Assembly: GCF_000379425.1 (NCBI RefSeq)
Contig: NZ_KB902184.1
Coordinates: 1-64,000, forward strand
Direction: 5' to 3'
From: Corynebacterium lubricantis DSM 45231
Lineage (GTDB): Bacteria; Actinomycetota; Actinomycetes; Mycobacteriales; Mycobacteriaceae
DNA: 64,000 bases
Shown: positions 2,123 through 21,299 of the stretch, piece by piece
Layout of the letters: each line of letters starts with the position of its first letter
Position numbering within the stretch: the first letter of the stretch is position 1
Notes under the pieces: model-generated
What the model was told of the DNA's origin: nothing
The model's input: the letters and a program-made list of their open reading frames with translations, nothing else
Databases searched by the model: none
Program-made: the position numbers and the translations under genes

Positions 2123-2305
2123 CTAAACTCCAGTTCGAGCGGATTTGCCAAAATTGATCATCGGATGCAACCCCGTAGTTGTCGCACCGAAGTAAATGGC
2201 CCAATCGGATACCATATTACCAATAGAACGCATTGCTTTCGACTTAGAAAACGAACTGATGTAGTTGTATTCGGGGTTTAGTCCGACTACCGTTACAGTT
2301 TCATC
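2123..2305 (-). pseudogene. Startless 60-codon open frame, possible gene relic
   Basis: The 311-bp gap between the two CgeB-type genes contains a 60-codon open stretch with no start codon at its head. It is closed by TAG at 2123-2125 and preceded by TGA at 2306-2308. The translation looks protein-like (it contains VTVVGLNPEYNYISS and DWAIYFGATTTGLHP). It begins in another frame just before the stop of the 1300-residue gene, so a one-base slip would fuse it to that gene's C-terminus. I do not recognise the family. It may be the tail of an older, longer gene, or chance. The rest of the gap (1990-2122) is AT-rich and probably holds the promoter of the left-edge gene. Confidence 0.25.
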
Positions 2306-5300
2306 TCAATGGCGAAATATCACCAAAAATTGCGTTCATAAGCCTATCGGTGACGTCCTTTTGCTGAAATTTTGAACTTATGATTTCCCGGAACTCGTCC
2401 CCATTTCCATCCCAACTCAAAATCGAGTTGACCATCTCATCGATCGACGAGCTGAGCCATTCAAGAGGATAGATAAAATCTGCACCAGGCCAATGCAAGA
2501 TTGCAGGGAACGCCCGCGATGCCGCGCCATCGGCGATTGTCAAATGAAATGACTCATAGTCGCTTGTCGACAATACAATCCCGATATTTCGGTACCATTC
2601 GGCCATATCATCGCCAAACTCGTCCAGAATTACGGTCCCTGGCGATTGATTATTCAACTCAGCAATTCTAAGTTCAATTTGCTGATAGTACGCCACTTCT
2701 TCCGGCCTATTACGAAGCCAAGGATAATCTGTCCACATTTTTCCTTTTATTCTGAGCCTATAACGTGAATCCAACTTTCGTAGACTCTCGAGCAGATCTA
2801 GTGCTAAGTCAATTCTTTTCCGCTGCGGCACAATCCCCACGAATCCTAGGGTAAATCGCGCATCGCTAGTTTTCGGGAGGTCCAATGCATCCACATCAAC
2901 GGAGTTCGGAATAGTCACAGTTTTTTTGGAAGGAACCCCGTGTGTCAGCACTGCCGTGTCCCGGATCAGTTTGCCGACGAAAATGTATCGATCGACTGCA
3001 CCGTGAACAGTTTGGGACAAATAAGGACGCGAAATCTCTTGAAGGTGCACTCGGACGACAAGACGCTGATGTTCTTTTACGTTCCTCGAATACCATCTAA
3101 CATTCCCGAGTCCCCATTCGCAGAAAACGATATCCGCTTGGGCAAGTAAACTTCGCGACAAATCTTCATCATGTTTTGTGTGGTTTTCCCACTTATCAAA
3201 AAGTAAGCGAACGCCTTTGAGTTTGAGCTCGTCGATAAGCATACCTGCGAATTTAAGATCATGACCTGCGATCAGTACTGTCTTGCCTTGAACATTCAGC
3301 GATGCCGATGTTGGCTCCGATTCAGCATCCGTCGGGGTTTCGTTTCTCACATCGGGTAGTCGGAATGCAATTTCGCTCATATTAGATCCAAAGCGTTTGA
3401 TCAATACCTCCTCGTCCACGACACCGGATTCGTTAGACGCAATGTAGTTTTGTGGAACCACGCCAGTTCCTACCTTGCCCCAGTCCCCAAACATTGAAGA
3501 TATTAGAAAATCTTCGTAATAGGTCCTTGGCAGATCGGAAATGTACTTCGCCGAGTATTCAATTGAATCATCCAGATTAGCAATGTCATTTACAATTGCG
3601 ATTTCGGGATCCGAATCTACATCGACCGATTGGGCGACTACGGCAGCTGGTGGATATGACTGCCGCTTTAGATCGCTTAGAATTGAAGCGGTAAGGCGTG
3701 GAACGATGACTGCATAAGTTGATCGTTGAGGTTCAGAAACGCAAACGCCAGCAGTCCTGAATGCTATCAGTAGGGCAGATTTAGCAGTATGCGCGCGAAA
3801 TATGGTGCGCATTTGTCGCCAAATTTCGTGACGACGTTGATTTTCATCAGAAGTCCACGCAAATATCAGGGCGCCGATAGTCTCAGGATCATTAGAGGAG
3901 GCAATAGTTTCACCAATTGATTCTCGGATTCCTCTGCCTTCTGCAGATAAAACTACTCCGCCAGAAGCAGGAATTTCGACGATTCGTCGCGAGAACATTG
4001 TTGGAGAGTTCGTCACCGAATTAACATTTAAATGTGCGATATGGTTTCTGTAGGAATCCACAACATCGCGATAAGGCAGCGCCCCGCGAACGTATTTTTG
4101 AAAGTGCTCGGGGAAATGGTACGGAGAATTTTCCACAGAAGCTTGACGATCATAAATATCTAGCCCGAATTCTTCCGCAATTGAGAGTAGACGGAGAAGA
4201 TCACTGGATCGTTCCTTATATCGATCGCCATAATACGTGCCCGCATGGGAAATGGAATTCCGAAATTCGTTGCGACGAGCGATCGGATTATGAATCAAGG
4301 GTTGCGCGAAAAAGGGCAAGGAAGCAACAGTTTTCACTCGTCCACCTTTAAGCGCGCGATATTTTGGAATCATGTTTGCGTCTGTCGTAAATATGTGATC
4401 GAATTTGATCGCCGTAGGAGAAAATCTCTTAAAGTGGACTGGGTCTTCTTTATTCCAAAAGATTGATGGAATCCCCCTTTCTTCCAGAAGATCAAGCAAT
4501 TGCGATAGGTCGTCGATCTCAGATTCCGAGTAGTACCCGACACCACGATGCCAGTCACCACCATTACCTTCCCACGCGGATTCCACGAAGACTAGGTCGA
4601 GTTTCCGATTCTCAATCTGCTGGCGCCAGCTTCTCTTATCTAGAATCTCAATTTGGACACTTCCGCATAATGCTTCAGTGGTGAATTCATCAGCAATGAG
4701 CCCAACTACAAGCTCATTTAGTTTTTTGGCAGGTTCAACTGAGCCCTTGAAATGCTCTACTGCCTTAGTCTTAGTTTTAAGAACTATCTCACCAATATTC
4801 TTCCATTGGCGTTCCTTTGCAACCCAAAGGTGACTGGTGCGTGCTAAGACTCGCTTCAGTTCGTCATCATTGATCAACTCGACGAGCTTTTCCGCCAATT
4901 CGTATTCGTTCTCCGCGCTGAATAGCAGAGCGCGATCTTGATTATTGCCGGCAAGGTCGCGGTTTGGTGCCACGTCGGAAAGCACGGTAGGCCGCCCGGC
5001 TGCGTATGCTTCCAAAGGCTTAAGTGGGGAGACCAGTTCCGTTATTTCGTATCTTTTTCTCGGGCAAACCACAATGTCAAAAGTTGATAGCAATCTTGGA
5101 ATTTGATTTTGAGGAAGTCTCCCTAAGAAATGCACGTTTTCCAGCCCGCGTTCTTTAGCTTCGTGCTTCAAAGCCTCCTCCTCAGAACCAGATCCAGCGA
5201 TCACCACCTGGTGATCTACGCCTTTGTTAGTAAGAACTTGGCTTGCTTTTAAGAGGGTATCTAAGCCTTCGTACTCTACAAGGCTTCCTGCAAAGCCTAT

Positions 5301-6203
5301 AGTGGGTAACTTGGGATCAAACTTCAGCCTTTTTGCGAATCCCTCGTCTTTTGGAATTGAAACATATCTTTCAATGTCCACCGCATTTGGTGCAATGATC
5401 AGCTTGTTTCCATTAATACCTCTACGTGTCAACTCATCCGCAACTTGTTGAGTGATGCACAGTACGTAATCAGCCTCACTTGCAACCAAAGTTTCTAAAT
5501 CTCGCTGCAGCTTAAAGTGCTCGCTATCTTTAAAAGCCGGCTTCTTGACAGCTTCGGTGATTTCCCAAAGCCCACGAACCTCGTAGATAAAGGGTATTCC
5601 CACTCGCCTCGCAGAGATGAGAGCAGGTAATGCAGTTCGATGATTCGATGCAGCAAGAATAATCTCGGGACGATTTCGACGAGCTTCGCGAGTAAAGACA
5701 TCCGAGCATTCCTCGATATAGTGATCGAGACTTTGCTGATTGAGATTTCCGCCTGGATTATGGATAAATGGAATATTTCCGAGACTAGACTCAACGCGCT
5801 CATTAACAGGCATTTTGCCATCGACGGTCGAATCCCATGGATAACCGGACCGTGCGACCACAACGACCTCGCCGCCTGCCGACTCTATTCCCTCAGCTAC
5901 TCCGCGGGTTCGCGTTGAATACCCATTCGAATTAAAAATTGGGGTTGAATGGACTGCATACATGATTCGTCCCAGTTCAGGCAGATAGGCCACATCAGCA
6001 AGTCTGGGAGGTACGGAGATTGCACCGTTCCTCAACCTGACGGAGCCTTCGACCCGATCAACAGTCCGCTGCCCTGCTGCTGAGAATTCGTAATCGTGCT
6101 TCTGCGCAGTTCGTAGGATTTTCTCAGACTCACTAATTGATCCACGCTCGTACCAAGCCTTATTCAGTTCACTTTCGAAATTCGTCAAATCAATAATCTT
6201 CAA
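2301..6203 (-). CDS. Three-module glycosyltransferase (GT4, CgeB-like, GT4-like), 1300 aa
   Basis: Starts at TTG (6203) with AGGT nine bases upstream. Module 1 (about 78-480) is a GT-B/GT4 enzyme: SNGYSTR loop (92), YEVRGLWE (about 208), TIGFAGSLVEYEG (about 302) and SPLKPLEAYAAGRP (about 390). Module 2 (about 510-860) is CgeB-like with FVESAWEG, FWNKEDPVHF, FTTD, PFFAQPLIHNP and AGTYY. A degenerate GT-A-like linker follows. Module 3 (about 985-1290) is another GT-B domain with IPNSVDVD, LGFVGIVPQRKR and a final STSDYESFHLTIADG donor-site stretch. Three glycosyltransferase modules in one chain are typical of enzymes that build a polymer repeat on one scaffold. It belongs to the AT-rich glycan island; specificity is unknown. 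It is far longer than ordinary GT4 proteins (350-450 aa). Confidence 0.85.
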   Translation of the reverse strand: MKIIDLTNFESELNKAWYERGSISESEKILRTAQKHDYEFSAAGQRTVDRVEGSVRLRNGAISVPPRLADVAYLPELGRIMYAVHSTPIFNSNGYSTRTRGVAEGIESAGGEVVVVARSGYPWDSTVDGKMPVNERVESSLGNIPFIHNPGGNLNQQSLDHYIEECSDVFTREARRNRPEIILAASNHRTALPALISARRVGIPFIYEVRGLWEITEAVKKPAFKDSEHFKLQRDLETLVASEADYVLCITQQVADELTRRGINGNKLIIAPNAVDIERYVSIPKDEGFAKRLKFDPKLPTIGFAGSLVEYEGLDTLLKASQVLTNKGVDHQVVIAGSGSEEEALKHEAKERGLENVHFLGRLPQNQIPRLLSTFDIVVCPRKRYEITELVSPLKPLEAYAAGRPTVLSDVAPNRDLAGNNQDRALLFSAENEYELAEKLVELINDDELKRVLARTSHLWVAKERQWKNIGEIVLKTKTKAVEHFKGSVEPAKKLNELVVGLIADEFTTEALCGSVQIEILDKRSWRQQIENRKLDLVFVESAWEGNGGDWHRGVGYYSESEIDDLSQLLDLLEERGIPSIFWNKEDPVHFKRFSPTAIKFDHIFTTDANMIPKYRALKGGRVKTVASLPFFAQPLIHNPIARRNEFRNSISHAGTYYGDRYKERSSDLLRLLSIAEEFGLDIYDRQASVENSPYHFPEHFQKYVRGALPYRDVVDSYRNHIAHLNVNSVTNSPTMFSRRIVEIPASGGVVLSAEGRGIRESIGETIASSNDPETIGALIFAWTSDENQRRHEIWRQMRTIFRAHTAKSALLIAFRTAGVCVSEPQRSTYAVIVPRLTASILSDLKRQSYPPAAVVAQSVDVDSDPEIAIVNDIANLDDSIEYSAKYISDLPRTYYEDFLISSMFGDWGKVGTGVVPQNYIASNESGVVDEEVLIKRFGSNMSEIAFRLPDVRNETPTDAESEPTSASLNVQGKTVLIAGHDLKFAGMLIDELKLKGVRLLFDKWENHTKHDEDLSRSLLAQADIVFCEWGLGNVRWYSRNVKEHQRLVVRVHLQEISRPYLSQTVHGAVDRYIFVGKLIRDTAVLTHGVPSKKTVTIPNSVDVDALDLPKTSDARFTLGFVGIVPQRKRIDLALDLLESLRKLDSRYRLRIKGKMWTDYPWLRNRPEEVAYYQQIELRIAELNNQSPGTVILDEFGDDMAEWYRNIGIVLSTSDYESFHLTIADGAASRAFPAILHWPGADFIYPLEWLSSSIDEMVNSILSWDGNGDEFREIISSKFQQKDVTDRLMNAIFGDISPLR

Positions 6204-6857: not shown

Positions 6858-6885
6858 TTGGTATTCAAATCGATTATTTTATGAT
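6858..6885 (+). promoter_or_regulatory. Promoter of the ABC exporter operon
   Basis: TTGGTA (6858-6863), a 16-base spacer and TATGAT (6880-6885) form a sigma70-type promoter. They lie in the 286-bp AT-rich gap between divergent operons. Transcription would begin near 6892, so the ATG at 6911 behind AGGGAG is the credible start of the permease; an in-frame ATG at 6881 would lie inside the -10 box. Confidence 0.5.
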
Positions 6886-6910
6886 ATTACCTAGAGAAGT
6901 AGAGGGAGCA

Positions 6911-7786
6911 ATGGAAAACAGGGAATCCGCTGAGCGCCCAGTCACACTGGTTAATGATAAAAACTTAATAGAAGTTTCGACCAGACCATCTCTTCCAGAG
7001 TACATACGCCAATTGTGGCAGAGGCGCCACTTTATCTTTGCAGAAGTACATTCAAAGGCATTTTCAACAAGCCAAGACCTTTTTCTGGGCCGTCTTTGGC
7101 TAGTCCTTGACCCAATTATCCAAGCCGGATTCTACGCCCTGGTTTTTGGCATCATATTGCAAGTAAATCGCGGTATCGATAATTTCATTGGGTACTTGAT
7201 TATTGGGTTGGCGTTCTTTCAGATTATTACCTCGGGGCTTTCGGGAGGCTCTAGATTAATTCGAAACAATCGAAGCTTAATTTCTTCGTTTCGTTTCCCT
7301 CGTGCCTCATTAGCTATTTCAAACAATTTGAAAGATGTTGCAGAAAATTCTGTTTCATTGATTGTTGCGATTGCCATTGCTTTACTTTTCCAATTAGATA
7401 AGCCCATAAGCTGGACAATTGTATTAGTGGTGCCTCTTTATTTACTGGCCCACTTATTTTCTTTAGGCATCATGTTTTTCTCGAGCCGCGCAGTTGCATT
7501 AGTTCCTGATCTGAATTCACTAGTTTCACTAATCAATCGTGGCTTGTTCTTTGTTTCAGGTGTCTTTTTTACCATCGAGAGATTCAATTTCAATCCAACG
7601 CTTCAATCGATTATGGTGGCAAATCCCATTTATCAGTTCCTTCAAGCCGCGAGGTCAGTAATCATGCTTGGAACAGTTCCGCCATTTTCGGTTTGGCTTT
7701 ACTTATTAGGATGGACCGTAATTACTCTCGTATTGGGATTTATCTATTTTTGGAGCGCTGAATCGAAATATGACCACGTTAAGTAA
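6911..7786 (+). CDS. ABC-2 type polysaccharide export permease (TagG/TarG-like)
   Basis: 291 residues from ATG 6911, with an AGGGAG ribosome site. The N-terminal cytoplasmic part contains LPEYIRQLWQRRHFIFAEV and then the amphipathic LGRLWLVLDPIIQAG segment, both characteristic of ABC-2 polysaccharide/teichoic acid exporters. Six hydrophobic segments follow (about 75-95, 105-125, 155-180, 190-210, 215-235 and 262-285). It overlaps the ATPase gene by 17 bases, so the pair is translationally coupled. By family it should carry a lipid-linked glycan across the cytoplasmic membrane. It is the only transporter in the island, so export is likely ABC-dependent rather than Wzx/Wzy-type. The mycobacterial galactan exporter (Rv3781/Rv3783) belongs to the same family, but the genes around this pair are unlike the galactan locus. 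Confidence 0.88.
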   Translation: MENRESAERPVTLVNDKNLIEVSTRPSLPEYIRQLWQRRHFIFAEVHSKAFSTSQDLFLGRLWLVLDPIIQAGFYALVFGIILQVNRGIDNFIGYLIIGLAFFQIITSGLSGGSRLIRNNRSLISSFRFPRASLAISNNLKDVAENSVSLIVAIAIALLFQLDKPISWTIVLVVPLYLLAHLFSLGIMFFSSRAVALVPDLNSLVSLINRGLFFVSGVFFTIERFNFNPTLQSIMVANPIYQFLQAARSVIMLGTVPPFSVWLYLLGWTVITLVLGFIYFWSAESKYDHVK

Positions 7787-8606
7787 CCCCACCGTAGTAG
7801 TACGAGATATTTCAAAAACTTACGAAATCTATAATGATGGAAGTACACGAAGCATCTTTGGCCGTAAAAAGCGCCAAAAGGTGCAAGCCCTTTCGAACAT
7901 CAATTTCGTTGCGTCAGCAGGTGAATCGATTGGGATTCTGGGGCAAAATGGGTCAGGGAAATCAACACTTCTAAGTATTATTGCTGGTTCTGAAGCTCCT
8001 ACTACAGGAGAGGTTCGAGTCTCGTCAGCACCAACGTTGCTTGGAGTTTCGGCAGCACTTCAAAGTAAAGCAAGTGGCAGGGAAAATATCAGAATCGGAC
8101 TGTTGGCAATGGGTGTCCAACCAAAGGAAGTAGAGGAACTGGTTCCTCGAGTTCTTGAGTGGACTGAACTAGGGGAAGCCGCAGACCGTGCGCTAAGCAC
8201 TTATTCATCGGGGATGCGTGCAAAGCTTAAGTTCGGCATTTCAACAGCAGTCAACCGAGAAATTTTGCTAATTGATGAAGCGCTCTCAACAGGTGATTCT
8301 ACGTTTGCTCAAAAAGCACAGAAGAAAATGGACAGCCTGTTGAACTCATCCGGCACAGTCTTCATCGTTTCACACGCTCCGGGTGTGATTGAACAACATT
8401 GTTCTCGAGTCCTCTGGCTCCACAAGGGGGAAATCATTGGAGATGGCACGCCTGGCTATTTTGGACCGAAGTACCACAAATGGAGCCGCCGTGTGGCACA
8501 CGGAAACTACGAGGGCGCAGAAGAACTGATTCAACAATTTCGCGATAGATACACGCCGCCCCTGATCATCACTGATTCAGAGGCAATCAAAATGCTCGAT
8601 TCCTGA
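7770..8606 (+). CDS. ABC transporter ATPase for polysaccharide export (TagH/TarH-like)
   Basis: 278 residues. Walker A is GQNGSGKST (about 57), the signature is YSSGMRAKLKFG (about 147), Walker B is EILLIDEALSTGD (about 168), and the H-loop is VSHAPG (about 203). The segment between Walker A and the signature (LLGVSAALQSKASGRENI) matches the TagH/KpsT style of glycan exporters. There is no long C-terminal carbohydrate-binding domain as in Wzt proteins that read a terminal cap, so chain length is probably not set by cap recognition. It partners the overlapping permease. The stop codon is 55 bases from the convergent gene at 8662; only a short CTTTC/GAAAG hairpin is seen between them. Confidence 0.9.
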   Translation: MTTLSNPTVVVRDISKTYEIYNDGSTRSIFGRKKRQKVQALSNINFVASAGESIGILGQNGSGKSTLLSIIAGSEAPTTGEVRVSSAPTLLGVSAALQSKASGRENIRIGLLAMGVQPKEVEELVPRVLEWTELGEAADRALSTYSSGMRAKLKFGISTAVNREILLIDEALSTGDSTFAQKAQKKMDSLLNSSGTVFIVSHAPGVIEQHCSRVLWLHKGEIIGDGTPGYFGPKYHKWSRRVAHGNYEGAEELIQQFRDRYTPPLIITDSEAIKMLDS

Positions 8607-11085: not shown

Positions 11086-13737
11086 TTAAAGCCTAACGGC
11101 TCGAGTGCCAAATGCTTTTCGCTCTCCGCCGGTTTCTCTTTCGAAGTAAATTCTCACGCGATATATTCCGCTTTCTAATTCACTCCACGATGCAGTCCCG
11201 TCCTTAACAGATACCAACTTCCCCAATCGTTCTTTTCCGGAGATTAGCTGCGCCCAAACTCTTGTTTCTGGCTCTTTTGCCACCGCGACTCCAACACTTT
11301 TCGTTTTTGCATCACTTGAAATAGCATTTGGCAACACCGAGGAGTCGCTTCCAATTGAATTATTCAGATTCTCTAGGAAACCGCGAAAAACCCCGCCAAG
11401 TTCAGAATGGGTTGTACCTGGCAATAACAGGAGCTCCGGGGCATAACCCAACATATGCAGATCGTCAACCAGTGGGACAACATGATCCCGATAGTGATGA
11501 TCCCCTTTACCCACTAAAATAGAAACTTTTGTCGTCCTCGTTCCAGATTGCAAAAGCGTAAATGCCGTCTGGTTTAACCAACTAACGTCGGCGTCTGTAG
11601 TTCCGCCTGCAATGTAACGTAGGATATTTGGGTGAGGATTCTTCAGGAAGCTCCCAATCTTATACTGAGGCGCACCAACAAGAACTTGCCTTATTCCAAG
11701 AGTAACTCCGTGAAGAAGAGCTGCGCTTCCCCCTTTTGCAGTACCAATGGAAATAACGTCGTTAAAGGTCAAATTCAAGTCGTGGACGAGCTGTTTGATG
11801 AGGGACTGAACACTTCGAAATTCAGCCATGTTTCTGTTGCTGGCGAGGTAGTAGGACCCCTGGTCGCCAAAATCATCCAGGATGTAAACGACGGCACCCT
11901 TAAATTTTTTCATCGAAGCACGGTAGTTGTACGTAAAGTCGTACTTCTGTCCAACAGCGGTAAAGACGATGGCCAGTTCCTTAATTTGCTCATCGTCCCC
12001 AAAGTATTCAAATAAATAGTTAACCGGCTTTTCAGCAAAATAAGTCTGCCAATTTGACTGTGGTGTAATGCCTCTGTCAAGTAGTTTGAAGTTTTCAGAT
12101 CGAAGGTCCCACCGAATATCCAACGAATTTGCGCTAAATACGACTTCAATCGCAGATGCAGCTTTCGCTTCCCCCATCGTCGGAAATGTCCACCCTTGAA
12201 CATAAGGATGCCGCTGGCCAATCACGTGCCTTACTTGTGTTGGCGTGGCATCGAACCAAGTCAGCTCCCCCAATTTTTGGTCGTCGCTTCGGTCAAAGAT
12301 TTCTAAGCCATTGCCGCGCAAAATAGGTGTAGTGTCCTCTGGGATATGCCAAAGAAAAGTGTACTTACGCTCGTTCTGGGAGCGTACGCTATCGAAAATC
12401 TCAACTTGCCCGGGTGCCGAGTGGCCCTTGAAAACACGCCTACTCCATTCAACTCCCGGATACCGTGTAGTCGCACCTTTTACATCGAGAGTATCTGGGG
12501 TTGAATCGATATCTACCAAGTTAGTAGCAGCTTGACCGTCATCGACACGTGGTAGACCTTGATCGTCGACTAAAAGCGTATTGTGCGCTGCACTTGAGAA
12601 TCCATATTTCGTCAAAGGGTCAGAGTATTCGTAGCCATTTGGGCCGGCTTCTGAGATTAGTTCTCGTCCATTTGCAAAGTAATACACGCTCATTTCGTCA
12701 GAATGCTTATGGTAGTCAGCATTGTATGCCGCACTAAAAAATAAGTACTCTGCTTGCGGAGTCCAATCAGAACGGTACACACCGTAGCCACTAGTTGTAG
12801 AAACAAATGTTTTGGAAGCTGGGGGTGCAGAAATTCTTCCAAACGAATGAGCTGCCATCATCGTATTCTCGCCAAAAACGCTCCTCACCTGTGACTCTGA
12901 AATCACCCCAAGTTTAGTGTCGCTTACAGGCACAAAGTGATTTCGAGGAGTTAATGCGAACGCACCGTAATGATCAGCCTTTGCCTTAATCTCTTTAAGA
13001 TGCGCTAAGTTTGTTGTTTCGCCGATGGACTCGAGATACTGCACGACCTGACCGAGATATCGAGAAACCATAAGATGATAGGTCGGCGTGTTTTCTTGGT
13101 GAATTCCGTCTTCATCGAAGCATTCGTTAAAATACTGAATAAGTCGATTGACTGCCACACTGTGTGTCTCAAGACTATTCGAAGTGGTAATTCCATAGGC
13201 CTCCGCTACTAATATCGCAATGTTTTGAAACATCCCATGATTATTCTTGCCTGCGTAGAACTCCGAAGAAGCTAAGAGATTTACCTCATCTTTTATGAAC
13301 TCAAGGTACTCGTCAATTTTGAACAAAGAAGAACTAGCCATTACGGAATGGAAAAACACAACAAAATTGATCACGCGTTGTGCAGTAGTTTCATCATGGT
13401 AGGCCATGGTTGAGGTCGAGTTTCGATACTCTAAGCACCAGGTTTCAAACATTCTATTGAATTCGGTGGCAAGTGTCCTTGTTTCCGACTCATCTAAAAG
13501 ATTCCATGCCGCACCCCAATCACGGATGAAGAACCACCCATGCGTTTTTCTACCAAGACTGCGGGGAACTTGGCTTGACCAAAATTCTCCATTGTCGTAT
13601 GCAGCACTTGATGCAGGATCTAGTTGAAGATCTCCAGTTTCGAAATAATGTCGTACATTTTTCAATGCCACAGCGGGAGTCGGACGGGCTACAAACGACT
13701 CGACTGATTCTCGGTGACTCTCACTACTAAGGGGCAT
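11086..13737 (-). CDS. Heparinase II/III-type lyase fused to degenerate alpha/beta hydrolase
   Basis: 883 residues from ATG 13737 (AGGAAAA upstream). Residues about 60-300 form an alpha-helical toroid with NNHGMF (165) and GIHQENTPTYH (211). Residues about 340-580 match the heparinase II/III beta-sandwich: YHKHSDEMSVYYFANGREL (342) and AAHNTLLVDDQGLPR. This is the fold of lyases that cut uronic-acid-containing polysaccharides by beta-elimination. Residues about 600-800 form a CpsF/Asp2-like hydrolase fold with IGTAKGGSAALLHG, where the expected nucleophile Ser is Ala667, although Asp and His candidates (VGKGDHHY, PGTTHSELGG) remain. No signal peptide is visible, so it probably acts inside the cell or is released by an unknown route. 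It may trim or recycle the island's own polymer. Confidence 0.75.
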   Translation of the reverse strand: MPLSSESHRESVESFVARPTPAVALKNVRHYFETGDLQLDPASSAAYDNGEFWSSQVPRSLGRKTHGWFFIRDWGAAWNLLDESETRTLATEFNRMFETWCLEYRNSTSTMAYHDETTAQRVINFVVFFHSVMASSSLFKIDEYLEFIKDEVNLLASSEFYAGKNNHGMFQNIAILVAEAYGITTSNSLETHSVAVNRLIQYFNECFDEDGIHQENTPTYHLMVSRYLGQVVQYLESIGETTNLAHLKEIKAKADHYGAFALTPRNHFVPVSDTKLGVISESQVRSVFGENTMMAAHSFGRISAPPASKTFVSTTSGYGVYRSDWTPQAEYLFFSAAYNADYHKHSDEMSVYYFANGRELISEAGPNGYEYSDPLTKYGFSSAAHNTLLVDDQGLPRVDDGQAATNLVDIDSTPDTLDVKGATTRYPGVEWSRRVFKGHSAPGQVEIFDSVRSQNERKYTFLWHIPEDTTPILRGNGLEIFDRSDDQKLGELTWFDATPTQVRHVIGQRHPYVQGWTFPTMGEAKAASAIEVVFSANSLDIRWDLRSENFKLLDRGITPQSNWQTYFAEKPVNYLFEYFGDDEQIKELAIVFTAVGQKYDFTYNYRASMKKFKGAVVYILDDFGDQGSYYLASNRNMAEFRSVQSLIKQLVHDLNLTFNDVISIGTAKGGSAALLHGVTLGIRQVLVGAPQYKIGSFLKNPHPNILRYIAGGTTDADVSWLNQTAFTLLQSGTRTTKVSILVGKGDHHYRDHVVPLVDDLHMLGYAPELLLLPGTTHSELGGVFRGFLENLNNSIGSDSSVLPNAISSDAKTKSVGVAVAKEPETRVWAQLISGKERLGKLVSVKDGTASWSELESGIYRVRIYFERETGGERKAFGTRAVRL

Positions 13738-13992: not shown

Positions 13993-15531
13993 TTAACAAC
14001 CTCGATACATTTCAAGTAAAAGCTCGGCATTCTTCTGCCAAGTTCGATCGCTCACCCAACTGATGGAATCTTCACCTGGAACCTTTCCAAACGACTCTTC
14101 AATCGCCCTCGCTAACTCACTCCAATTATCCGCTTCGACGTATGTTGCGTGCCCTCCGGTGATTTCCCTAAGCGCAGGTAAATCAGAGGCTACGATGGGT
14201 ACTCCAAGTGCTTGAGCAATCAACGTTTTTATCGGTGTCACATTTTTTGTAACCTCTAGGCCTTTTCTTGGAACGGCGAAGACATCCAGTGCTGCGTACC
14301 ACTTCCATATTTCTTCAGGAGGTTTTCGCCCAGCAAAAATCACTCTTTGCGATATTCCTAATTCTCTTGCAAGTGACTCTAGTTGGGGTCTCGAATCGCC
14401 CTCGCCCACAATCAAACAATGTGCATCCTGTATTTTCTGAGCCGCAAATATCAGGCCGTCAAGACCTTCGTAATCCACCACAGAAGTTACGGCCCCAAAG
14501 ATTTGACCTTCTGGAAGCTCCAGTTCGGAGCGAATAGCCTCTCGATCGAACTTTCGACCAATAATCTCAGAATCTACCGCATTTGGGAGGACCGTGATTC
14601 GCTCGGGAGAAATTCCTCTTTCTACGATACGGCGCTTAGATAACTCACTCAGAGCGATTACATGACTTGCGGACAACATCGCCGAATCTTCTTGGCTTCG
14701 TGCCATTCCATAGAATTCCGATCGTTCCGCAAGTTCTTGATCTATTTCATCACGCTTTGAAAGCCAAGTATTTTCAAGTTCTCCTCGCACTTCATAAACC
14801 CACGGGATTTCCAGAATCTCAGCGGCGCGCGCAGCAACAATAGCATTCTTATAGTCCGTCGTCGTATGCAGTAAATCTGCACGAAACTTGCGGCCTTCGT
14901 CCACCAAAAGTTGTACTGCGAGGTCGTCTCGGCTTTGCAAACTCATCGGATATTGCCATGAAAGCATCCGAGAGTATTCAATTCCTTCAACTGTTTGCAC
15001 TCGGCCTTTGGGAAGTTTTCCCACCAGAACAGGGTATGCAAGACGCGTGACAGCACGCACCGCTACTCCTTTTCTGCTCAAAGCCTTGAGACTATTCTGA
15101 CTCCGCTGTGTATAACCAGACTGTGTAAATGGCAGACTATTCGTTAGCAGATAAAGAACTCGTGGTGCCTCTGTACCACTGTTGGATTTATTGATTACTT
15201 GGCCATTGGGAATGCGAACTTCCAGTTGCAGTATTTTTTCAATGGTTCTTCGTTTGCTAAACCTCTCTGAGGACCTGGATACATCTGCAATCTCTATAGC
15301 ACGCGAAAACTCTCCCAAATCTAGGAACCGTTTCATCTGACTTGGCTCACCACTATCAAATTTTGGAAGGAACGCACTCAATTTGGACACGAACGCACTA
15401 TTACTAGTTCGCAATCGTTCAGCGAACTGAACGTAGAGGTTTTTGGGATTCTCGCGCAGCATTCCATACATTGCGCTTCCAAGTAGTGAACCCATTTTGA
15501 GCCAATGCAAGAATGAATCACTCCGAGTCAT
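13993..15531 (-). CDS. Glycosyltransferase family 4 protein with N-terminal helical extension
   Basis: 512 residues. The start ATG overlaps the stop of the upstream glycosyltransferase as ATGA (15528-15531), so the two are coupled. Residues 1-120 are helical and of unknown role. Residues about 125-510 form a GT-B fold: SLPFTQSGYTQRSQ (133), YEVRGELENTW (about 248), LPNAVDSE (about 325), AVTSVVDYEGLDGL, and the donor-site stretch TPIKTLIAQALGVPIVASDLPALREI. The layout is like module 1 of the 1300-residue protein (same SGYT/SNGYST loop and YEVRG motif), so the two are probably paralogues using related acceptors. It is a cytoplasmic enzyme of the glycan island; donor sugar unknown. Confidence 0.85.
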   Translation of the reverse strand: MTRSDSFLHWLKMGSLLGSAMYGMLRENPKNLYVQFAERLRTSNSAFVSKLSAFLPKFDSGEPSQMKRFLDLGEFSRAIEIADVSRSSERFSKRRTIEKILQLEVRIPNGQVINKSNSGTEAPRVLYLLTNSLPFTQSGYTQRSQNSLKALSRKGVAVRAVTRLAYPVLVGKLPKGRVQTVEGIEYSRMLSWQYPMSLQSRDDLAVQLLVDEGRKFRADLLHTTTDYKNAIVAARAAEILEIPWVYEVRGELENTWLSKRDEIDQELAERSEFYGMARSQEDSAMLSASHVIALSELSKRRIVERGISPERITVLPNAVDSEIIGRKFDREAIRSELELPEGQIFGAVTSVVDYEGLDGLIFAAQKIQDAHCLIVGEGDSRPQLESLARELGISQRVIFAGRKPPEEIWKWYAALDVFAVPRKGLEVTKNVTPIKTLIAQALGVPIVASDLPALREITGGHATYVEADNWSELARAIEESFGKVPGEDSISWVSDRTWQKNAELLLEMYRGC

Positions 15532-16829
15532 GATTGAGTCACTTTAGAAATAAAATCATGGAGTGTCTTTGGTACAATCACTTCTCTTTCTTGCTTAACC
15601 CATTGAGCCCCCGCATCTCCGACATTGAGTAGATCAGGTTTCTTCACAAAGCTCTCCCAAAGCGCCGCTAATTCACGTGGGGATTCTGGACGTACGACAT
15701 GCCCGGCATCTAAACCATCAACTATTTTAGCTGTTTCCCCATCTGCTACTGCAGTGATGTGAAGTCCGATCGACATCAATTCATACGTTTTCGATGGGAC
15801 CGCTTTATTTAGCGCTGGCCAGTCCGTTAGATGGACAAGCGCAGTATCAGCCCAGGAATAGTGCGAATCAAGTTCATCAGCGGGATGTCGATACACAAAT
15901 TCAATGCTGCCAGGGATATCCCGGGCTAATTTTCGAAGCTCGGCTTTAGCAGCCCCAGCTCCAACAAAACGGAGGCGGATGCAAACTCCTTGGCTTAGTG
16001 CGATCCGAACCGCATTAATCGCATTCTCGAGATTTTGAGCTCGCCCAATTGTTCCAGCATATAGCACGTTCAAGGAATTCAACGGTCTTCCGCTTGTGGG
16101 TGATACCTTCATTCTGGTCAAGGGAGGAAATACATTCCTAATCACGACGCTGCATTGACAGTATGAATCCTTCGGATCAGCATGGCGCTGCTGCAGCTCC
16201 CTTTCTAGAGCTGCAGAAGTGACTATTAAACCAGATGCATATTTTAGTACTCCACGCAGTGCAACTCCAGTTAGTGCTTTCATTACTTGTAATGGCCCCA
16301 TCGAGAATACTTTCTCTCGGATAGAAGCTTTGCCAGTGCTTTTGTTCCAACGCGAAGATTCTCGAAGTAAATCTGGCCAGGCATCGCGCAAATCAATTAC
16401 GTATGGTTTTTTAAAACGCATCGACGCAAATGCTGTTACTACGGCAGTTGGTAGAGCCGGAACAGTTCCAATAATCAGATCTGGGGTATAGGAACTCATA
16501 GGCCCAGACCGCCTACTTATAACCCTCAATGCCCCTAAAGCCACGGCGGCTTGGTTTAAGATCTTCCGCGACAACGATTGACCTGCAGGAAAATATCCAG
16601 TCCGAAGTATTCGCTCACCCGAAGGACCTATGGTCAAGTCACTAGCGGAATTCATCTGCCTTTTCTTCCACCACTCGTTGAGCGCAATTTTCCGCTCATA
16701 GTGCGGAGGTGGTGCGATGACTGTTACCTCATGCCCGCTATCTACCAAGAGCTTAGACAGCCAAGACCATCTTCTCTGCGGGACTCCATTTTCAGGTGCC
16801 CAGTACTGGGAGATCACTAAAATATTCAA
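15528..16829 (-). CDS. WbuB-like glycosyltransferase family 4 protein
   Basis: 433 residues. The start is TTG (16829), judged from the family N-terminus ILVISQYWAPENGVPQRRW; the ribosome site is weak. It is a GT4 fold of the WbuB/WcaI type: IAPPPHYE (39), LIIGTVPALPTAVVTA (about 119), YVIDLRDAWPDLLRE (about 143), NVLYAGTIGRAQNL (about 255) and VPSKTYELMSIGLHI (about 345). Enzymes of this group transfer N-acetylated amino sugars such as FucNAc in O-antigen pathways. Here the nearby wecB/wecC make ManNAc-type donors possible, which is an inference. It is the first gene of the two-gene operon nearest the CAT tRNA. Confidence 0.85.
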   Translation of the reverse strand: MNILVISQYWAPENGVPQRRWSWLSKLLVDSGHEVTVIAPPPHYERKIALNEWWKKRQMNSASDLTIGPSGERILRTGYFPAGQSLSRKILNQAAVALGALRVISRRSGPMSSYTPDLIIGTVPALPTAVVTAFASMRFKKPYVIDLRDAWPDLLRESSRWNKSTGKASIREKVFSMGPLQVMKALTGVALRGVLKYASGLIVTSAALERELQQRHADPKDSYCQCSVVIRNVFPPLTRMKVSPTSGRPLNSLNVLYAGTIGRAQNLENAINAVRIALSQGVCIRLRFVGAGAAKAELRKLARDIPGSIEFVYRHPADELDSHYSWADTALVHLTDWPALNKAVPSKTYELMSIGLHITAVADGETAKIVDGLDAGHVVRPESPRELAALWESFVKKPDLLNVGDAGAQWVKQEREVIVPKTLHDFISKVTQS

Positions 16830-17029: not shown

Positions 17030-17079
17030 GTTTAAACTCGGTCCCTGTTAATAAGGACAAGGACCGAAACTGTTTAAAC
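17030..17079 (-). terminator. Inverted repeat at the wecC stop codon
   Basis: GTTTAAACTCGGTCC (17030-17044) and GGACCG...GTTTAAAC (17061-17079) form an imperfect hairpin with GTTTAAAC ends, starting at the wecC stop codon. No T tract follows on the minus strand. It is either a structure-only terminator or an mRNA-stabilising stem between wecC and the tRNA gene. Confidence 0.4.
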
Positions 17080-18305
17080 TAGCGCCAAACTCCCCTAGTG
17101 TCGATAATTGTTTTGCCTGCTAGCGTCGATCGATCAATCTTCTTGAATTCCTTATGATCAACAAGCAGCAGAACCACATCAGCCTCGGATATCGCTTTGT
17201 CCAGATCTTGAAGTTTGATATTCACAAAATCAGCCAAAGAAACAGGGAGGTCTCCGATATTTGGCTCAACAACTCGTATATCAAGATCCGAGTTTGACTC
17301 TGCAAGTTCTCGTACAATGTTCAACGATGGCGATTCTCGTAAGTCATCGATGTCGGCCTTAAATGCAATTCCTAACGCGGCAATTACCGGCGATTCGATC
17401 TTCGAAATTGCATCCTCAACTTTCCCCAACACATATTGAGGCTTTCCGTCGTTGACGTCCCTTGCCAGCTTGATCATTTTTGCTTCCTCTGGAGTCGAAG
17501 AAACTATGAACCAAGGATCCACCGCGATGCAGTGTCCACCGACTCCTGGTCCTGGCTGAAGAATATTCACACGTGGATGGTGGTTCGCAAGTTCAATCAG
17601 TTCCCATACGTCGATCCCTAGGCGATCACTGATCAGCGAGAGTTCGTTTGCAAAGGCAATATTTACATCACGGAACGAATTCTCGGTAAGTTTGGCCATC
17701 TCCGCGGTTGTGGCATCAGTTTCAAGCAGTTCAGCGGTGCAAAATGTACCATAAAGGTCAACAGCGAGCTTTGTACCTTTTGGTGTCAGACCACCAATTA
17801 CTCGGTCATTGTTCTCCATCTCTTCCATGATCTGACCCGGAAGAACCCGCTCAGGACAGTGAGCCACAAAGATTGCATTCTCGTCGTCTTCATTCAAAGA
17901 CAGATCGGGGCGAAGTTCAATAATGTATTCCGCCATCGCCTTCGTAGTCCCGGGAGGAGAAGTCGACTCCAAGACCACCAATGCCCCTGGACGAAGATGT
18001 GGCGCCATCGCCTCGACAGCTGAATTAATGTACTTCGTATCAACTGCATGATTCTCTTTAAATGGCGTTGGTACGCAAACGATGTATGCGTCCGCTTCAA
18101 CTTGATCCGCACGCGCTTCAAGGAGGCCGTCTTTGACAACTTGCCGCAGTAGAACATCGAATCCTGGCTCCACAAATGGAACTTCACCCCGATTAATGGT
18201 GTCCACGTAGGACATGTTTACGTCCACCCCGGTAACTTTCACACCTTTTGAGGCAATAAATGCTGCCGTGGGGAGTCCAATATAGCCAAGTCCCACGACA
18301 CACAC
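17079..18305 (-). CDS. wecC: UDP-N-acetyl-D-mannosamine dehydrogenase (apparent N-terminal frameshift)
   Basis: 408 residues from the only in-frame start (GTG 18305). NAD-binding motif VVGLGYIGLPTAAF lies at the very N-terminus. A UDP-sugar dehydrogenase core follows with ESTSPPGTT, AHCPERVLPG, KLTENSFRDVNIAFANE, PGPGVGGHCIAVDPWF (active Cys in GGHC) and GIAFKADIDDLRESPS. It oxidises UDP-ManNAc (from WecB) to UDP-ManNAcA. The start has no ribosome site and lacks the usual few residues before the first beta strand. A GTG at 18346, preceded by AAAGG, opens a frame (MSVSVETPTKFNSV) that would join this protein exactly if the (GT)6 run at 18298-18309 had five units. So the gene is either switched off or weakened by slippage, or the repeat is a sequencing slip. 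Confidence 0.88.
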   Translation of the reverse strand: MCVVGLGYIGLPTAAFIASKGVKVTGVDVNMSYVDTINRGEVPFVEPGFDVLLRQVVKDGLLEARADQVEADAYIVCVPTPFKENHAVDTKYINSAVEAMAPHLRPGALVVLESTSPPGTTKAMAEYIIELRPDLSLNEDDENAIFVAHCPERVLPGQIMEEMENNDRVIGGLTPKGTKLAVDLYGTFCTAELLETDATTAEMAKLTENSFRDVNIAFANELSLISDRLGIDVWELIELANHHPRVNILQPGPGVGGHCIAVDPWFIVSSTPEEAKMIKLARDVNDGKPQYVLGKVEDAISKIESPVIAALGIAFKADIDDLRESPSLNIVRELAESNSDLDIRVVEPNIGDLPVSLADFVNIKLQDLDKAISEADVVLLLVDHKEFKKIDRSTLAGKTIIDTRGVWR

Positions 18306-18309
18306 ACAC
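18298..18309 (-). repeat. (GT)6 dinucleotide run at the wecC 5' end
   Basis: Twelve bases of alternating AC on the plus strand (GT on the coding strand), inside the wecC N-terminal coding region. With six units the frame from the GTG at 18346 runs out of phase. With five, or eight, it reads straight into VCVVGLGYIGLP. This is a potential slipped-strand switch. Confidence 0.7.
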
Positions 18310-18346
18310 TATTGAACTTCGTGGGAGTTTCTACCGATACAGACAC
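18310..18346 (-). pseudogene. wecC: Out-of-frame native N-terminus of wecC
   Basis: GTG at 18344-18346 with AAAGG six bases upstream and a TGA just before it encodes MSVSVETPTKFN, then runs into the GT repeat. Nucleotide-sugar dehydrogenases usually have such a short polar lead before the first strand, so this is likely the original start, separated from the rest by one extra GT unit. Confidence 0.6.
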
Positions 18347-18544
18347 AAGTCACCTTTCGTACAGCAATATTTCAGAATACTTTACATGGACAGCATAGGT
18401 TTTATCAGTTATGCATTTCAGTACCAAAGCAAAATAATAACACCTTGGACATGTATTCGCTCGGCTTACAGACTTCTATTCGCCCAACTTCGAAGGCCGT
18501 CCAAATAACTAGATTCTTTCAATTTCCATATCTGAGCAGGCGAT

Positions 18545-18574
18545 TTGTATTGAATGACAAACGCAGGCTAAAGT
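18545..18574 (+). promoter_or_regulatory. Promoter of tRNA-Asn
   Basis: TTGTAT (18545-18550), an 18-base spacer and TAAAGT (18569-18574), about 40 bases before the mature tRNA 5' end. The remaining gap back to wecC (18347-18544) is AT-rich and presumably contains the divergent wecC promoter. Confidence 0.4.
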
Positions 18575-18616
18575 AACTAATCGTTGCAGAGAGCAAGACA
18601 GCAACAGAAAATTTAA

Positions 18617-18692
18617 TCCCGCATAGCTCAGTTGGCAGAGCATTCGACTGTTAATCGAAGGGTCACTGGTTCGAGCCCAGTTGCGGGAGCCA
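18617..18692 (+). tRNA. tRNA-Asn (GTT)
   Basis: Cloverleaf with acceptor TCCCGCA/TGCGGGA, D arm GCTC/GAGC, anticodon stem TTCGA/TCGAA with loop CTGTTAA (anticodon GTT), T arm ACTGG/CCAGT with TTCGAGC, discriminator G and an encoded CCA. A strong terminator follows immediately, so it is a single-gene transcript. Confidence 0.95.
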
Positions 18693-18695
18693 CTA

Positions 18696-18723
18696 CCCGG
18701 AACGTGCGCGTTCCGGGTTTTTT
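18696..18723 (+). terminator. Rho-independent terminator after tRNA-Asn
   Basis: Perfect nine-pair stem CCCGGAACG/CGTTCCGGG with a TGCG loop, followed by six T. Confidence 0.95.
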
Positions 18724-18744
18724 GCTTTCAGAATGCGAGGAAAG

Positions 18745-19944
18745 ATGGTTCAATCAAAGTCACCCAATGGAATCTCAACGCCGATCCTAATCAGCCTCGC
18801 TTTGTGCAGTGGGTACGCGCCGTTCGCTATTGACACGTACTTGGTGGGCATGCCGGCGATCACGGATGAGTTTCAGACCACAGCCTCGCTCACCCAATTC
18901 ACGCTCACCGGCTTTTTGCTCGCCCTAGGTCTAAGCCAGTTGATCATCGGTCCGCTCTCTGACAGTGTAGGGCGTCGAAAACTCCTCCTCGGGGGCCTAC
19001 TCGGTGCCGTGATTGCCTCCGTAGTCTGCGCACTCGCGCCAAATATTTGGGTGCTCATTTTGGGGCGTGTTCTGCAAGGAGCTTTCGGAGCAGCCGGTGT
19101 CGTCCTCTCCCGGGCAATCGTTGGCGATCTTGGCCGAGGGATAGGCATAGCTCGCGCCTTCGCCTTATTGATGTCTATTCAATCGCTGGCTCCGCTGTTG
19201 GCCCCCATTATTGGTGGCTTGCTCATACCGTCGTTCGGTTGGCGGAGCGCTTTCTGGTTCCTCGTCGGCCTTGGAGTTGTGTCTTTCTTCCTCGTTCTCG
19301 CCTTAGTAGCAGAATCATTGCCCCCGGAGGAACGAACCTCCGGAGGTGCCGCAAACACGGTAAAAGACATCAATTCGATTTTGAGGACTCGCGATTATAT
19401 TTTCCCGCTAATTGTGTTCGTTGGCTCATTCGCAATGATGTTTGCGTACATTGCAGCCTCCCCTTTTGTACTTCAACGAATCGGAGGATTGAGCGAGAGC
19501 GCGTACACCATCGTATTTACAATCAATTCTTTCGTCATATTGATTATGAATATGGTCAGTCGAAGTCTCGTACCAAAATATGGTCCACAGAAACTTATTT
19601 CGGTCGGTGTACTCCTCGGTTTCATTGCCGTAGTTTGGCTCTTCATAGGAGTCGTGTTCTTAAGTTCAGCACCAGAGGCCATAATCCCCGGGTTCATGTT
19701 TGTTGTTGCGTCCTCAGGTCTGATCCTGCCCAATGCTTCAGCTATTGCCGTTGAAGCATCAGGTGATAAACGCGGAACTGGCTCGGCACTGCTAGGTGCA
19801 TTTCAGTTTGGCTTAGCGGCAATAGTTTCCCCGCTCACCGGCATCGGCAATGGCACAACAGCGATGCCCATGATCATCATCATGGGCATCGCAATAATCG
19901 TCCAGATTTTAGCACTTACTCAGATTCGCAAGATGCCAAGTTAG
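18745..19944 (+). CDS. Bcr/CflA-family MFS drug efflux transporter
   Basis: 399 residues from ATG 18745 (GAGG four bases upstream); an in-frame ATG at 18733 lacks a ribosome site. It has twelve predicted membrane helices. The motif A loop between helices 2 and 3 is GPLSDSVGRRKLLLGG, helix 1 holds YAPFAIDTYLVGMPAI, and helices 4-5 hold GRVLQGAFGAAGVVLSRAIVGDL, all typical of Bcr/CflA proton-driven exporters (bicyclomycin, chloramphenicol and similar compounds). It stands between tRNA-Asn and the convergent wecB gene and is not obviously part of the glycan system. The substrate is unknown. Confidence 0.9.
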   Translation: MVQSKSPNGISTPILISLALCSGYAPFAIDTYLVGMPAITDEFQTTASLTQFTLTGFLLALGLSQLIIGPLSDSVGRRKLLLGGLLGAVIASVVCALAPNIWVLILGRVLQGAFGAAGVVLSRAIVGDLGRGIGIARAFALLMSIQSLAPLLAPIIGGLLIPSFGWRSAFWFLVGLGVVSFFLVLALVAESLPPEERTSGGAANTVKDINSILRTRDYIFPLIVFVGSFAMMFAYIAASPFVLQRIGGLSESAYTIVFTINSFVILIMNMVSRSLVPKYGPQKLISVGVLLGFIAVVWLFIGVVFLSSAPEAIIPGFMFVVASSGLILPNASAIAVEASGDKRGTGSALLGAFQFGLAAIVSPLTGIGNGTTAMPMIIIMGIAIIVQILALTQIRKMPS

Positions 19945-19947
19945 GAC

Positions 19948-21120
19948 CTACAAACTAGAATCTGGCAAGTCAGGAACGAACTCCCCAATCCGTTCACCCA
20001 CTCCTGTCAATTCCGCGATTGCCGCAACAGCACGGGCTGCTGCGTGACCGTCTCCGTAGGGATTTACTGCGTTAGCCATCTTCTTGTAAGCCGCCTCGTG
20101 GTCAAGCAGATTTTGAGCTTCAGCCACGATCAATTCTCGGTCGGTGCCCACTAGCTTCACGGTTCCTGCCACAACGGCTTCTGGGCGCTCCGTGTTCTCT
20201 CGCATAACCAATACTGGTTTGCCCAATGCTGGCGCTTCTTCTTGGACTCCGCCCGAATCGGTGAGTACCAAATGCGACGCGTTCATCAAGGACGTGAACT
20301 GGTCATACGGCAATGGATCTGTGATGGTTACGTTCTTTAGACATTCAATCTCAGGCATCACCGCTTCACGAACCTTTGGGTTCAAGTGTAGCGGCAAGAC
20401 AAATTGGTGATCAGGATACGCCTTCGCCAGATCTTGTACCGCCCCACCAATCTCCTGCATTGCATGGAGGTTTTCGCGCCTATGCGTAGTAATAAGAACG
20501 ATGCGCTGATCGCCGGAGACAATCTTTTGGAGGCGTTCGTCGTCGAAGGTAACTTTCCAGGTGGAAGCTTTGAGGAGTGAATCAATCACGGTATTACCGG
20601 TGACAACGATGTCCTTGGACCGGAAGTTTTCTTTTCGGAGATTCTCCTTCGCTTCATTTGTTGGAGCCAAATGCAGGCTCGTCACCTGCCCGATGATGCG
20701 TCGATTAGCCTCTTCTGGGAACGGCGAGTGAATATTTCCCGAGCGAAGGCCTGCTTCCAAATGCACAATCTTTACCTCACGGTAAAAGCCCGATATCGCA
20801 GCCACCGCTGCCGTCGTTGTATCACCCTGGGCAATAATTACGTCCGGCTTCTCCTGCACAATTAACTCTTCCAAGCCAACGCTTGCTCGAGAGCCAAACA
20901 TATTCAGGCTCTGCCCATGCTGCATCAGCTCAAGATCGAAATCAGGTTCAATGTCAAACATCTTATGAACCTGTTGCAGCATCTCACGGTGCTGACCGGT
21001 GGAAACTGCAAGCGAATTAAAACGGTCATCCCGGTTCAATCGCGATATGACCGGCGCGACTTTAATCGCTTCGGGCCGAGTTCCGTACACAGTCATAATT
21101 TTTGGCTTGAGCGAAGTCAT
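19948..21120 (-). CDS. wecB: UDP-N-acetylglucosamine 2-epimerase (non-hydrolysing)
   Basis: 390 residues from ATG 21120 (GGAG nine bases upstream; an in-frame GTG at 21129 is the alternative). Family motifs: TVYGTRPEAIKVAPVI (N-terminus), AQGDTTTA (about 96), VHLEAGLRSGNIHSPFPEEANRR (about 118, in which Asp is replaced by Asn-Ile), TTHRREN (about 213) and LTDSGGVQEEAPALGKPVLVMRENTERPEA (about 285). It interconverts UDP-GlcNAc and UDP-ManNAc in the cytoplasm, feeding WecC. It lies 3.7 kb from the glycan island with wecC between, which supports ManNAc/ManNAcA as components of the polymer. In other corynebacteria such genes also occur outside such islands, so the link is inferred. Confidence 0.93.
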   Translation of the reverse strand: MTSLKPKIMTVYGTRPEAIKVAPVISRLNRDDRFNSLAVSTGQHREMLQQVHKMFDIEPDFDLELMQHGQSLNMFGSRASVGLEELIVQEKPDVIIAQGDTTTAAVAAISGFYREVKIVHLEAGLRSGNIHSPFPEEANRRIIGQVTSLHLAPTNEAKENLRKENFRSKDIVVTGNTVIDSLLKASTWKVTFDDERLQKIVSGDQRIVLITTHRRENLHAMQEIGGAVQDLAKAYPDHQFVLPLHLNPKVREAVMPEIECLKNVTITDPLPYDQFTSLMNASHLVLTDSGGVQEEAPALGKPVLVMRENTERPEAVVAGTVKLVGTDRELIVAEAQNLLDHEAAYKKMANAVNPYGDGHAAARAVAAIAELTGVGERIGEFVPDLPDSSL

Positions 21121-21299
21121 TAATGGCACTCCAGAATGGTCGATGAATACTTGACAGAAAAACTAACACATTGAAAATTCAGCTCAACCTCAGGGATGTA
21201 TTAGATTCTTAACAAACTATATAGCGTTACTTAGACTCTGTCCTTTTATGCCCGAAAGTTCGTTCGGTCGTACATGCGTCACATGGCCATGCCTGTATT

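Follow-up and report, generated by a model that had tools for sequence, protein, structure and literature searches.

At the 5' end of wecC, a UDP-N-acetyl-D-mannosamine dehydrogenase gene of Corynebacterium lubricantis DSM 45231, a run of six GT units stands between a candidate start codon and the body of the gene and places the two in different reading frames, which raises the question of whether the run is a phase-variable switch, a frameshift mutation, a sequence error, or part of a leader that the gene does not need. The locus was analysed within a stretch of 64,000 nucleotides (positions 1 to 64,000 of contig NZ_KB902184.1, assembly GCF_000379425.1; hereafter the window), which belongs to a draft assembly of 57 contigs totalling 2,943,135 bases. 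Comparison with relatives indicates that the assembled allele differs from the normal start by a one-unit frameshift, which most likely turns the gene OFF or strongly lowers its expression. The reading we prefer, with a probability only slightly above one half, is that slippage at the native wecC start produced a frameshift allele that silences or reduces WecC and is reversible in principle.

All elements of the 5' end lie on the minus strand. The wecC open frame, 79–80% identical to its nearest relatives, spans 17079..18305 and is read from an internal GTG. The (GT)6 tract occupies 18309-18298, one unit over the relatives' frame. Upstream of it, a GTG at 18346-18344 has AAAGG, a sequence resembling a ribosome-binding site (18357-18353), six bases upstream and is followed by 12 open codons up to the A preceding the tract. 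These leader codons (18310..18346) are homologous to the leaders of related genes. The tract thus consists of non-triplet units in the 5' coding region, 37 bases behind the leader start, and the leader as assembled passes it out of the wecC frame and meets a stop after 35 residues. In the wecC frame itself, a TAG at 18311-18309 shares the first G of the tract and stands directly before TGT GTG; it limits the in-frame starts before the GLGYIG motif to GTG 18305 and a GTG one codon before the motif. The frame has five codons before GLGY, with start codons solely at the fourth and the first; a crude scan assigned a ribosome site to neither. A promoter search covering both strands of 18290-18740 gave no candidate, a result that favours neither the native nor a leaderless start. 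The sequence-only reading that drew attention to this locus had described the (GT)6 tract, GTG 18346, the AAAGG six bases upstream and the wecC frame from GTG 18305, and we find these on the minus strand as described, in the coordinates checked.

In order to establish the usual form of this 5' end, 242 Corynebacterium genomes were searched, and a wecC-like gene was found at E ≤1e-80 in 78, this genome included; the weakest of these genes are 40–50% identical and may differ in function. The 5' ends were taken from all 78 and 77 were parsed, leaving 76 orthologues besides the present one. The gene left out (G009:C1:1655660-1656847) contains one in-frame TAA and is apparently broken. In all 76 parsed orthologues the frame extends at least nine codons upstream of GLGY, as against five here, and has a start codon at least six codons before this motif. 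In a blind MAFFT alignment of 5' ends, each of the 20 closest Corynebacterium wecC genes (69–80% identical) shows a two-base gap at the tract. The leaders of 19 of these 20 carry a Phe seven residues before GLGY that is also present in the leader from GTG 18346, and 15 of them have GAAAGG at the aligned place opposite AAAGG, counted by eye. The alignment gap, the leader Phe and the frames of the orthologues together argue that leader and body formerly made up one reading frame, to which one extra GT unit has been added here. These comparisons support GTG 18346 as the probable native wecC start and the extra GT unit as particular to this genome. They also bear out the sequence-only reading in its central proposals, namely that the two frames belong together and that GTG 18346 is the proper start, joined to the body when the tract is one unit shorter; the pattern that would have refuted that reading, a start corresponding to 18305 together with a six-unit tract, is seen in none of the 76 parsed orthologues.

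The tract itself is not kept in related species. The longest GT run near the start is four units in one of the 76 orthologues, three units in three and one or two units in the other 72, so that we reject the idea of a tract common to wecC genes throughout the genus. Conservation of this kind is usual for phase variation by simple sequence repeats (SSRs) and is not strictly required, as tracts can be strain-specific. No sequence from the same species was found among the 242 genus genomes, where the closest wecC is 80% identical, nor in a broad contig search, which may omit this genome's own and very close records and whose best 80 of 587 matches reach at most 64% identity. A 27-base leader pattern had no match in viral contigs. 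The body of wecC has no signs of decay, its 79–80% identity to the nearest species lying inside the range found among those species.

The product of the gene body can be assigned with some precision. It matches the equivalog-level NCBIfam model NF008286 (WecC) at 569.1 bits, against a cut-off of 459, which upholds the earlier assignment of wecC to UDP-N-acetyl-D-mannosaminuronic acid (UDP-ManNAcA) synthesis, and it aligns with Cap5O (PDB 3ojl) at 331 bits. The WecC translation has the GGHC catalytic cysteine motif as GVGGHCIAVDPW, which in this alignment falls opposite GVGGHCLAVDPY of Cap5O. The full-length match is shared with NF008286 and Cap5O; unlike them, the gene described here has its start codon split from its body by the frameshift. 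The only other WecC-like match in the genome is 30% identical.

We propose that the native start of wecC is GTG 18346 and that the gain of one GT unit in the sequenced cells broke the frame shared by leader and body. The gain would most likely have arisen by slipped-strand mispairing. The genome encodes NucS, and no match to a MutS domain was found in it with a model that gave hits in 11 of the 14 genomes used as controls (C. glutamicum not included). NucS is reported, in passages of PMC8228993, to be unable to correct short indels. Translation from GTG 18346 would end after 35 residues, and WecC would accordingly be absent, or the weak internal GTG 18305 would yield no more than small amounts of it. 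Since the sole other WecC match is so distant, loss of WecC should stop the supply of UDP-ManNAcA, and this sugar and any polymer built from it may be missing or reduced. Reversal would be possible in principle, probably at a low rate for so short a tract.

Several observations weigh against this proposal or limit it. Polymerase proofreading is suggested, again in passages of PMC8228993, to suppress most short indels, and we came across nothing that documents slippage of GT runs as short as five or six units in Corynebacterium. Leaderless translation was reported for 33% of C. glutamicum mRNAs, with GUG as the start in about 21% of those (PMC3890552), and the crude scan likewise failed to detect a ribosome site for any of the listed starts in 15 of the 76 orthologues. 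For this last reason the missing ribosome site at 18305 is not decisive alone, and the two facts together mean that the internal GTG could be used. Two orthologues (L135 and L155) have likely starts six codons upstream of GLGY, two more than from 18305. On that count, protein made from GTG 18305 would be two residues shorter than theirs and might be functional if it were produced, which argues against complete loss. The rarity of the tract is also less telling than it first appears: from contig codon usage, a five-unit run at this place is expected in about 0.35% (0.0035) of genes, and the conserved Val-Cys-Val dictates part of the GT run, which counts against an evolved repeat.

Phase variation at wecC is plausible, and an isolated frameshift mutation fits the observations at least as well as switching does. 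A true contingency locus, in which tract length changes frequently enough for cultures to consist of both wecC-ON and wecC-OFF cells and this heterogeneity is maintained through selection on the surface polymer, we consider unlikely, and we are equally sceptical of a working dinucleotide switch of a ManNAcA-containing surface polymer in Corynebacterium, driven by slippage beyond the reach of NucS repair. The position of the tract at the 5' end of a surface-sugar gene is what such a locus would show, as are the presence of NucS, the failure to find MutS, and the singularity of the tract. GT runs of at least five units occur at this place alone in the genome; under a first-order Markov model derived from contig C4, about 3.4 (GT)5 and about 0.2 (GT)6 sites would be expected genome-wide. 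This uniqueness has another side, in that (GA)6, (TA)6 and (CG)6 are absent genome-wide in either phase (pattern and reversal), which leaves the genome with no second dinucleotide tract of 12 bases or more and the supposed switch with no companions. Six units equal the Campylobacter cut-off (six) and fall short of the Neisseria one (eight), which places the tract at the bottom of the published cut-offs for dinucleotides, and cut-offs of the Campylobacter type carry a warning that they admit rates below 1e-5; the in-frame ON form would have even fewer units. Nor does any of the 76 other parsed orthologues exceed four.

Known systems offer partial parallels. In the SSR translational phase variation of Neisseria, Campylobacter and Helicobacter, as at wecC, a short non-triplet repeat lies in the first codons of a surface-carbohydrate gene and one unit sets the frame; in contrast to those systems, the present tract has six dinucleotide units, is unconserved, has no set of other dinucleotide tracts beside it and, known from one genome, has shown no length polymorphism. 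Mycobacterium tuberculosis is an actinobacterium said to lack MutS (PMC12892979) in which repeat length alters gene function, and repeat-based phase variation has been described there (PMC11898584, PMC12817950). The variants in that species differ in being homopolymers (affecting ESX-1-associated genes and glycerol kinase) or longer tandem repeats in promoters, and in being backed by populations and phenotypes, whereas the wecC tract is a coding dinucleotide. Propionibacterium acnes, also an actinobacterium, has G/C tracts of variable length that alter reading frames; according to passages of PMC4746626 their length follows clades, which suggests slow change and makes them a model for wecC as a slow mutation and not a switch.

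Elsewhere in the genus, (GT)6 was found in 13 of the 242 genomes, at 19 distinct places by our own count, this one included. Of the 18 other places, 13 lie in or beside rRNA operons (the placing of those just outside genes being our judgement) and the remaining five were viewed for open frames alone, so that most of these tracts can be set aside as switches. In genome G004, four copies of the 23S gene were found (L202-L205) with the same flanks. One of them has a GT tract of eight units and the other three have six, which hints that tracts of this kind change length in Corynebacterium and is a point for a contingency locus. A further (GT)6, which reads CA on the coding strand, is situated about 27 codons downstream of an ATG in a 542-residue stop-to-stop frame in genome G075 (L193:1755-1766). 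We also reject, for the tract types tested, a genome rich in contingency tracts: apart from the absence of a second 12-base dinucleotide tract, the sole 9-base G runs of the genome are at the ends of contigs C27 and C31 (L218 and L219, genome G000), where they are probably a trace of short-read assembly, and a search of contig C4 gave no homopolymer of at least eight bases other than G.

That the sixth GT unit arose through an error in consensus or assembly, with wecC an ordinary intact gene, is in our view distinctly improbable. The draft state of the assembly and the in-frame form seen in the 20 closest relatives are in keeping with an error. Against this, a 12-base tract fits inside one short read, and the G runs at contig ends suggest that reads of this kind were used; open reading frame (ORF) tiling of contig C4, a mechanical procedure with overlaps counted, sums to 0.946 of its length. 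An indel-ridden contig was rejected, in what is a weak test confined to overlapping pairs, after four of the seven flagged same-strand overlapping ORF pairs in C4 had been scanned against Pfam and none looked like a split gene.

We give a similarly low chance to the gene being ON as it stands, with GTG 18305 serving as the start, either in a leaderless mode or with no Shine-Dalgarno sequence, and the upstream leader dispensable; the GUG leaderless starts of C. glutamicum, the 15 orthologues without a ribosome site and the short starts of L135 and L155 discussed above speak for it, but every parsed orthologue has a start codon available further upstream, at least six codons before GLGY, and a start here would probably trim the first strand of the NAD-binding fold.

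Returning to the frameshift allele produced by slippage, what it would mean depends on its stability. If it is real and can revert, it would exemplify repeat-driven surface-sugar switching in Corynebacterium, a genus for which searches of open-licence literature listed no paper title on such a case, and the locus would offer a simple test of the frequency of short-repeat slippage in bacteria that use NucS instead of MutS. A frozen frameshift would suggest a strain without the sugar of a cluster that is kept in relatives, and annotation from the internal GTG would then conceal it.

The cluster was examined in 18-kb stretches from nine close relatives and in four more distant named loci of about 10–11 kb each. 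In the window, wecB (19948..21129, minus strand), 1.6 kb from wecC, encodes a non-hydrolysing UDP-GlcNAc 2-epimerase, the preceding pathway step, and scores above the TIGR00236 cut-off. A glycosyltransferase gene adjoins wecC (15528..16829, minus strand) and does so in all nine close relatives examined, and a second glycosyltransferase (13993..15531, minus strand) is a neighbour in eight of the nine. An ABC-2 permease and its ATPase (6881..8606, plus strand) resemble galactan and teichoic-acid exporters, with scores below equivalog cut-offs. Among the close relatives, wecB accompanies wecC in 8/9 and the ATP-binding cassette (ABC) exporter is found in 8/9; among the four distant loci, one has wecB, one has both exporter genes, one has part of the permease, and none carries the two neighbouring glycosyltransferases. 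Because a UDP-ManNAc dehydrogenase gene beside wecB, glycosyltransferases and an ABC exporter recurs in close relatives, a link to a surface polymer is reasonable. The surface polymer put forward in the sequence-only reading stands to this extent, as a link and not as an identified polymer.

Between wecB and wecC, a tRNA-Asn gene and a Bcr/CflA-type transporter of the major facilitator superfamily (MFS) lie on the plus strand at 18617-19944 of the window. The spacing between wecB and wecC is about 155 bases in genome G016, as judged from tblastn edges, and an MFS homologue also lies between them in G074. Two large proteins are also encoded in the window, one of 1300 residues (2301-6203) with more than one glycosyltransferase stretch, and one of 883 residues (11086-13737) in which a heparinase II/III-like domain is accompanied by a weak capsule-protein-like stretch.
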